Positions 21,804-23,036 of a stretch of 64,000 bases of DNA are shown here, piece by piece (within the stretch, counting starts at the first letter, position 1; every line of letters starts with the position of its first letter). The translations under genes and the position numbers were made by a program. Source of the stretch: Azotobacter salinestris (GTDB lineage: Bacteria; Pseudomonadota; Gammaproteobacteria; Pseudomonadales; Pseudomonadaceae). The stretch spans positions 2,897,001 through 2,961,000 of the forward strand of contig NZ_CP045302.1 in NCBI RefSeq assembly GCF_009363155.1, written 5' to 3'. The notes under the pieces were generated by a model that did not search any database, was not told the origin of the DNA, and worked only from the letters and a program-made list of their open reading frames with translations.

Positions 21804-23036
21804 TCAATGTTCGTGCGGGTGCGGATGCCGCTCGTAGTGCTGGCGGAGCAGATCCTTGCCGTAATCGTTGCCGTTCGGCGTGCGGATCACCGTGTGGATG
21901 TGCTCGCGGGTCGGCTTGCCGCGCTCCAGATGGCGCAGGGCGACCGGTGCCTGATGATCGAACTCGATCAGGACCACCGGGCTGTGGATGCGGTAGTAGA
22001 AGACGCTGTCCGGCTGCGTGCCGCCGATCCAGGCGAAGCGGGTCTCGTCCAGATGCCGCCGCACCTCGTCCATCTTCACGCTCGCGTGTTCGTCGCGCAT
22101 GTTCCGCACGTATTCGCCGATCAGGTCGAGCAACTGCGCCTTCTGCGCGGCCGTGAGCTCGCTGGCGCGGATTCCCGCGTAGTCGAGGACGAGGTTGTCC
22201 CTGAACGCCTCGCCCACGGCGAGGTTGCCCGTCTTGGCCGTCTCGATGATCGCCTTCCGGCGCTGCACCGCGTCGAGCGCGTCGATCAGTGCCAGGCCCT
22301 TGGCCTGTTCGTCCTGCAGTACCGTGGTGCCCTGGTATCTGCCGGAGGTCGCCGTCACCGGCTCGGAGCCCATGAAGGTGGGCGTCATCACCACCTGATC
22401 GCCCAGCACGAAGTAGTTGATGACCAGATGGTGGCCGTCGAGCTGCCAGCCCCAGGGCTCCTGCTCCGCAGGCGTGCCCATCAGCGTGATCCAGTAGAGC
22501 CCCTCGTCGTATTCGGCGAAGTTGTCGTCATTGAGTTCGCCCAGCCGCTGATTGAGCCGCATGATGTCGCGCGACTGCTGCAAGCCCTTGGCGCTGAGCG
22601 AGGCGCGCAGCAGCTCGAAGGCCGCCTCGCGCTGGGCCCCGGTCATCTCCTTGAAGCCCGTGCCCTGGCGGATATAGAAGTGCTGGTTCATCCACTTGCG
22701 CCATTCCGGATCCTCGACCGGAAACAGCGTCCTGGCATGCTGCTCCGGGGTCAAGGTGGCGAGAAACGCCTCGGCGGCCTGGCGAACCGGCGCGGTGGAC
22801 ACCCCGGTCGAGCGGAGGGGAAAGAGGCCGCGGACGACCTCGCCGTCCGTCGTGACGCCCCTGAACGGCTCGGCCAGCCCGCGCGCCTCGGCCTCCGCCG
22901 ACAGGCGCCGGGCGCGCTCGCTTGGCGGCTGCTGAGCGAGGGCGGCGTCGCCAGGCGCCAGGGCGCCGAGGAGGAGGGCGCAGAGCGCAGGGATGAGGGG
23001 GCCGTGTCCATCCGCCATTTCCATATCGCCTCGCAT
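21804..23036 (-). CDS. DUF3500 family exported protein
   Basis: A 410-aa protein with a signal peptide (hydrophobic [18 protein letters not shown] followed by QQPPSE) and the DUF3500 layout: repeated helical segments, [42 protein letters not shown] and a His-rich C terminus ([11 protein letters not shown]). The function of the family is not established. It lies between the sigma gene and the REP pair, 153 bp after the sigma stop, in a locus otherwise devoted to iron. Three near-by Met codons (residues 1, 5 and 7) compete as starts, and GAGG precedes the inner ones. Confidence 0.85.

Follow-up and report, generated by a model that had tools for sequence, protein, structure and literature searches.

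The gene considered here encodes a protein of the little-described DUF3500 family and lies directly behind a sigma factor gene in a siderophore-type setting, which raises the question of what the protein does and whether its position reflects iron control. The original prediction described an exported protein with a His-rich C-terminal end, which might be made with a pvdS-type gene under iron starvation and could bind metal. Its coordinates and His-rich end proved exact, and the strand is minus. The window, i.e. the whole 64,000-nucleotide stretch of Azotobacter salinestris DNA that was analysed, carries the following features at this locus.

23823 to 23847, no strand assigned: Fur-like box or boxes, two overlapping 14-of-19 matches upstream of the sigma gene
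23190 to 23750, minus strand: ECF sigma factor gene, 186 aa from an ATG (an ORF from a TTG at 23813 also exists)
23037 to 23189, minus strand: gap of 153 nt between the sigma stop and the DUF3500 start, of which 23131-23156 is shared with a sister species
21804 to 23036, minus strand: DUF3500 (PF12006) ORF, from an ATG at 23036 to a stop at 21804, 410 aa, predicted to be exported
22932 to 23036, minus strand: predicted signal peptide, about residues 1-35, a hydrophobic segment ending in ALAQQ
21855 to 22805, minus strand: DUF3500 domain, residues 78-394 (Pfam)

The family assignment was borne out by a Pfam score of 358.1 bits against a gathering cut-off of 27.2, while none of the NCBIfam models matched. 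Because several phyla contain near full-length homologues with 59-79% identity (best segment), the reading frame is no chance ORF, and the window gene is a real, poorly known member of an ordinary kind of family. A plus-strand antisense ORF that overlaps it (21780-23558) was set aside, as a matter of judgement, as a GC-rich artefact. Export, periplasmic or secreted, is predicted from the N-terminal signal segment (hydropathy 2.55 over 13 residues); alternative ATG starts occur at residues 5 and 7, and in a structure model with mean pLDDT 83.4 and pTM 0.84, residues 1-12 fall below a pLDDT of 50.

Conservation was followed in the window sequence together with the best 80 of 584 relatives (L002-L081, from GTDB genomes), a subfamily set of 81 sequences, 60 of which are taken into alignment A1; the alignment row of L050 extends a few residues beyond its stop. 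A divergent set of 19 members was also used, from which L099, which stops inside, was excluded and for which L100 gave no tblastn match; one of the 19, L096, has an in-frame stop. Four features of the window gene stand out in these comparisons.

22428 to 22433, minus strand: codons of the GHH motif, H202-H203, kept in 81 of 81 (window plus best 80 of 584), 19 of 19 divergent members and the solved structure 9x86
21963 to 21965, minus strand: codon of E358, kept in 81 of 81 (window plus best 80 of 584), 19 of 19 and 9x86
21894 to 21902, minus strand: HxH codons, H379-I-H381, both His kept in 81 of 81 (window plus best 80 of 584) and 19 of 19, and present as HIH in 9x86
21807 to 21839, minus strand: His-rich C-terminus of 11 residues, with subfamily counts for each position given below

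Within the 81 sequences (window plus best 80 of 584), H202, H203, H361, H379, H381, H400, E358 and D360 never vary. The family-wide invariants, a set derived here from all 19 divergent members, are H202, H203, E358, H379, H381 and R385; H361 and H400 are each retained by a minority of those members. The retention of GHH, E and HIH in 9x86 refers to the parts covered by the printed alignments. Judged from sequence, the His/His/Glu/His/His set could serve a mononuclear metal site, and metal binding there, rather than at the tail, is plausible. The special metal-binding role earlier suggested for the tail was not supported by this comparison. The motif H[IV]HxxxRTPNG[NG]DYG is present in 81 of 81 sequences, the window included, and 48 of the 81 have HPH among their final 14 residues; the individual tail histidines are found in 81 (H400), 62 (H404), 68 (H406), 18 (H408) and 13 (H410) of them (all for the window plus best 80 of 584). 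The His cluster thus closes a conserved region and adds a stretch that varies but is frequent among close relatives, and the tail is an ordinary subfamily C-terminus.

The gene upstream on the same strand matches Sigma70_r2 and r4_2 (Pfam) and scores above the cut-off of NF005448; its start is likely the ATG at 23750, which has a plausible ribosome site upstream. Its context comprises ornithine/lysine oxygenase, NRPS and efflux genes and the Fur-like box, with the ornithine/lysine N-oxygenase gene (398 bits, Pfam) lying beyond the DUF3500 stop in convergent orientation. The pvdS-type label fits this context, but none of the models used names the gene PvdS. The Fur-like matches agree at 14 of 19 bases, against maxima of 11-13 across 20 shuffled windows. 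No terminator-like or promoter-like site was found in the 153-nt gap, whose RNA fold is not unusual (z -1.36; 25 of 200 shuffles fold as well). A scan of the window for exact matches to a PvdS-type box (TAAAT-N15..18-CGT) returned two, at 19075 (+) and 26789 (-), where 0.23 were expected and at least two arose in 3 of 100 shuffles; none lies ahead of the DUF3500 gene. Co-transcription of the sigma and DUF3500 genes is possible, as suggested by the shared strand, the short gap, the absence of a terminator-like site and the upstream Fur-like box.

Several other elements were seen in the window. A second strong Fur-like box (16653-16680, best 15 of 19) lies in the interval between a TauE gene and an NRPS piece (16779-19112) that encodes a condensation domain together with part of an AMP-binding domain (profile positions 4-208 of 384). 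A 133-aa protein is encoded at 26851-27252; DUF4880 is its sole Pfam match, and so it is without a FecR domain match. The convergent DUF3500 and N-oxygenase stops are separated by a palindromic REP-like repeat (21603-21690), and a 141-base query spanning it (21580-21720) gave 52 matches in its own genome, itself included.

A conserved linkage of the sigma and DUF3500 genes was not found in relatives. DUF3500 is present in one copy in its own genome and gave no match in any of the 36 relatives searched, so that among 37 genomes only the own genome matches; a PF12006 match of any kind was obtained in 5 of 274 genomes of the class, and a query from the clade with aromatic-type clusters (below) matched in 6 of 398 genomes of the phylum, the own genome being included in both counts. 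In the sister species of the same genus (G001), the sigma orthologue is 91% identical, the principal alignable segments of the cluster match the window at 89-93% identity, and the Fur-like core, judged by eye, is also kept. The interval there between the oxygenase stop and the sigma stop is 827 bases long and without DUF3500; its slot (L091:8061-8540) is occupied instead by a same-strand 160-aa ORF with a haem-like CNACHH motif, which matches a cytochrome c' profile weakly (19.6 bits, below the cut-off of 26.5) and had no match in three further genomes of the genus. Because 26 bases behind the sigma stop (window 23131-23156) are common to both species, the two slots diverge inside the gap. The siderophore region of plasmid pAcX50f of A. 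chroococcum NCIMB 8003 gave a 91% match to 12% of a 20-kb cluster query, and tblastn found no DUF3500 copy in its related 44.5-kb stretch. The layouts of the sister species and pAcX50f differ beyond the NRPS piece, and in pAcX50f a TonB receptor precedes a GNAT gene. The iron link of the DUF3500 gene is therefore weak and unproven, being without conservation, as the pairing with the sigma gene was seen in the window genome alone. Its location beside an iron regulator looks accidental, and any iron regulation would be incidental at most. As a whole, the original interpretation was supported in part: co-transcription is possible though without conserved linkage, and metal binding is plausible, but not as a special feature of the tail.

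The nearest homologues of the window protein point to another source. Among the best 80 of 584 relatives (59-79% identical to the window), hosts belong to Armatimonadota, Cyanobacteriota, Microvirga, Acidobacteriota, Gemmatimonadota, Planctomycetota, Verrucomicrobiota and a few others, with the top identities (up to 79%) in Armatimonadota, Cyanobacteria, Microvirga and Acidobacteriota, and the gammaproteobacterial MAGs L031, L062 and L080 are no closer to the window than other phyla are. These proteins resemble the window protein in the invariant residues and the C-terminal motif, and a hydrophobic N-terminal segment is found in 78 of 81 (window plus best 80 of 584), whereas the five cyanobacterial members of the same set differ in carrying a Tat-type signal, RRKFL. 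In a midpoint-rooted tree, to which a long-branch warning and an unsettled bootstrap apply and which is without L099 (internal stop), L124 and Amc20, the window pairs with the Armatimonadota MAG L002 (support 90/90, a fork that is not starred). Because the nearest homologues (best 80 of 584) lie in other phyla, the gene was probably gained horizontally, a case that rests on phyletic pattern and synteny since its base composition (GC 67.7%, GC3 0.90) resembles that of neighbouring genes and bears no foreign sign.

The same tree joins the window subfamily to a clade of L092-L095, L108 and L110 (support 97/96), with a partly HupE-linked side apart, and the gene neighbourhoods fall into three settings. 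In the joining clade (setting A), most of whose loci are aromatic-type clusters, an FAA hydrolase lies near DUF3500 in four of six loci (L093, L094, L095 and L108; tblastn on all six) and was not found by tblastn in L092 and L110, the latter being without any such aromatic-type gene; L108 and L110 carry no annotation. L092 and L095 also have Rieske oxygenase genes; L094 and L095 have cupins, and L094 adds a gene for an aromatic ring-hydroxylating dioxygenase. HpcH/HpaI is present in L092 and HpaH and HpaI-like genes are found in L093, while NTF2-family genes occur in L092, L093 and L095. These DUF3500 proteins are 36-41% identical to the window protein among the matches listed and share the same or a close C-terminal motif, but their N-termini have, by eye, no clear export segment. 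On the other tree side and in like members (setting B), a HupE_UreJ_2 gene adjoins DUF3500 in three of ten loci (L103, L106, L124) and was not found in L096, L104, L105, L107, L109, L125 and L126; a small hypothetical gene follows DUF3500 in L096, L103, L104, L105, L107 and L109, a TonB receptor is also nearby in L106, and L124 carries two DUF3500-HupE_UreJ_2 pairs. DUF3500 and its HupE_UreJ_2 neighbour in L103, L106 and L124 possibly form an unnamed system. A search of seven regions (L120-L126) gave the HupE_UreJ_2 match in L124, and L120-L123, L125 and L126 were without a match to FAA hydrolase, cupin, Rieske or HupE_UreJ_2. Among 40 of 58 plasmid records, fifteen were examined; one Agrobacterium plasmid copy of DUF3500 (L096:8509-9804), with no CDS annotated and one in-frame stop, is either a disrupted gene or the product of a sequencing error.

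The window's own subfamily (setting C) has no shared neighbours among the best 80 of 584. No ORF cluster was common to more than 12 of 80 loci, those common to 12 came from a single set of close Thermoanaerobaculia/Holophagales relatives, and a cluster of large proteins in 11 of 80 lay at varied distances from DUF3500. When one or two query proteins for each family were compared by blastp with the ORFs within 7 kb, FAA hydrolase, cupin, Rieske and HupE_UreJ_2 genes were found near 0 of 80 (best 80 of 584); for 44 of these loci, less than 7 kb of sequence is present on one side or both. In L002, the closest homologue, the ORF of a BD-FAE esterase shares a few bases with the start of DUF3500; farther out, on the opposite strand, there is a glyoxalase-family gene.

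As for the reaction, Martins in 2024 reportedly described a fungal cluster with a monooxygenase and an FAA hydrolase-like gene beside DUF3500; a cluster of this type was not among the neighbours identified at the window locus. The fungal DUF3500 protein AN10530 is described as a putative dioxygenase proposed to convert 1,2,3,5-tetrahydroxybenzene to 5-hydroxydienelactone (PMC12388069), its likeness to the window protein being that of the shared family name. Another source describes IPR021889 as open-ring in the tetrahydroxybenzene pathway, which seems restricted to fungi, and prints the family as DUF3550, taken here to be DUF3500 (PMC13094099). In Rhodococcus RL1, a DUF3500 gene is listed close by locus tag to that of a 3-(3-hydroxyphenyl)propionate hydroxylase (PMC8416521).

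The family, its invariant residues, AN10530 and the aromatic-type clusters of the joining clade together favour a ring-opening reading. We propose, at somewhat less than an even chance, that the window protein is an exported, horizontally gained, metal-dependent enzyme that opens rings of phenolics or acts as a related lyase, and that is at most incidentally under iron control. A DUF3500 gene of a soil-dwelling bacterium from another phylum would have lodged in a variable slot behind an iron-regulated-looking sigma gene; H202/H203, E358 and H379/H381 would hold or assist one metal ion; the exported enzyme would open or otherwise cleave polyhydroxylated aromatic rings, e.g. gallate- or tannin-derived phenols; and expression in iron starvation, if any, would be read-through from the sigma transcript rather than conserved design. 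We infer the origin, metal, reaction, substrate and read-through alike, and because none of the aromatic-type genes searched was found near a subfamily locus (0 of 80, best 80 of 584), the reaction is carried over across approximately 40% identity. The Tat-type signal of the cyanobacterial members fits cofactor loading before export, and the BD-FAE esterase ORF of L002 also speaks for the proposal. Against ring opening stand the title of the sole solved relative, a dehydratase, the putative status of the fungal role, and the rarity of that BD-FAE neighbour, which is found beside 1 of 80 loci (best 80 of 584), plus a weak match 5 kb off in L016.

That solved relative bears on a rival reading, which we consider rather unlikely, in which the protein belongs with ApmL/Amc20 as a lyase or dehydratase, its conserved His and Glu residues acting as acid-base (or metal) groups in the removal of water from a polyhydroxylated substrate, without O2. 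Structure 9x86 (Amc20), titled dehydratase ApmL of amipurimycin biosynthesis, gave the only fold match with E below 0.001 (Foldseek E 2.2e-18; TM 0.84 over target and 0.54 over query) and a sequence match at E 1e-29, and it shares the fold and the GHH, E and HxH residues with the window protein. It differs in being a 297-aa protein of an antibiotic cluster with 25% identity in the fold alignment. Its nearest relatives here, L101 and L102, lie outside all three settings and branch outside the clade uniting the window subfamily with the aromatic-cluster members (Amc20 itself being absent from the tree), and the literature searched on Amc20, or on ApmL with amipurimycin, contained no text on the activity of the protein. 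The cispentacin paper describes the amc cluster, and 'DUF' is absent from its main text (PMC10698177). Amycolamicin was rejected as the source of Amc20, the title of 9x86 giving amipurimycin.

The proposal that the protein binds or chaperones metal and is made in iron starvation could draw on the same-strand sigma gene, its Fur-like box, and the HupE_UreJ_2 proteins, which are membrane proteins, but it appears improbable: these adjoin DUF3500 in few loci, on the far tree side (L124 not being in the tree), and were found near no subfamily member (best 80 of 584), the tail is ordinary for its subfamily (window plus best 80 of 584), and the sister species keeps the same sigma gene without DUF3500. 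A role in tailoring or recycling the siderophore of the cluster would suit a position between the ornithine/lysine oxygenase and sigma genes, yet it is highly improbable, given a sister cluster and a pAcX50f stretch that do without the gene, and general neighbour clustering of 80 relatives (best 80 of 584) that brought out no siderophore neighbourhood in common. It is very unlikely, too, that an exported ring-opening oxygenase with the DUF3500 fold and His/Glu metal site was captured behind the sigma gene as an iron-starvation tool that destroys iron-binding polyphenols or the catecholate siderophores of rivals; if this were true, the enzyme would free iron from them outside the cytoplasm.

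Returning to the ring-opening proposal and the family at large, DUF3500 is widespread and little described in the literature, with one solved structure by fold match. The residue set found here, along with the division of the family into exported members without fixed neighbours, members in aromatic-type clusters and members partly linked to HupE, provides a testable frame for these proteins. The DUF3500 loci of aromatic-type clusters in L092-L095 and L108, four of which also have an FAA hydrolase, are candidates for a tetrahydroxybenzene-like route in bacteria, a counterpart of the fungal one.
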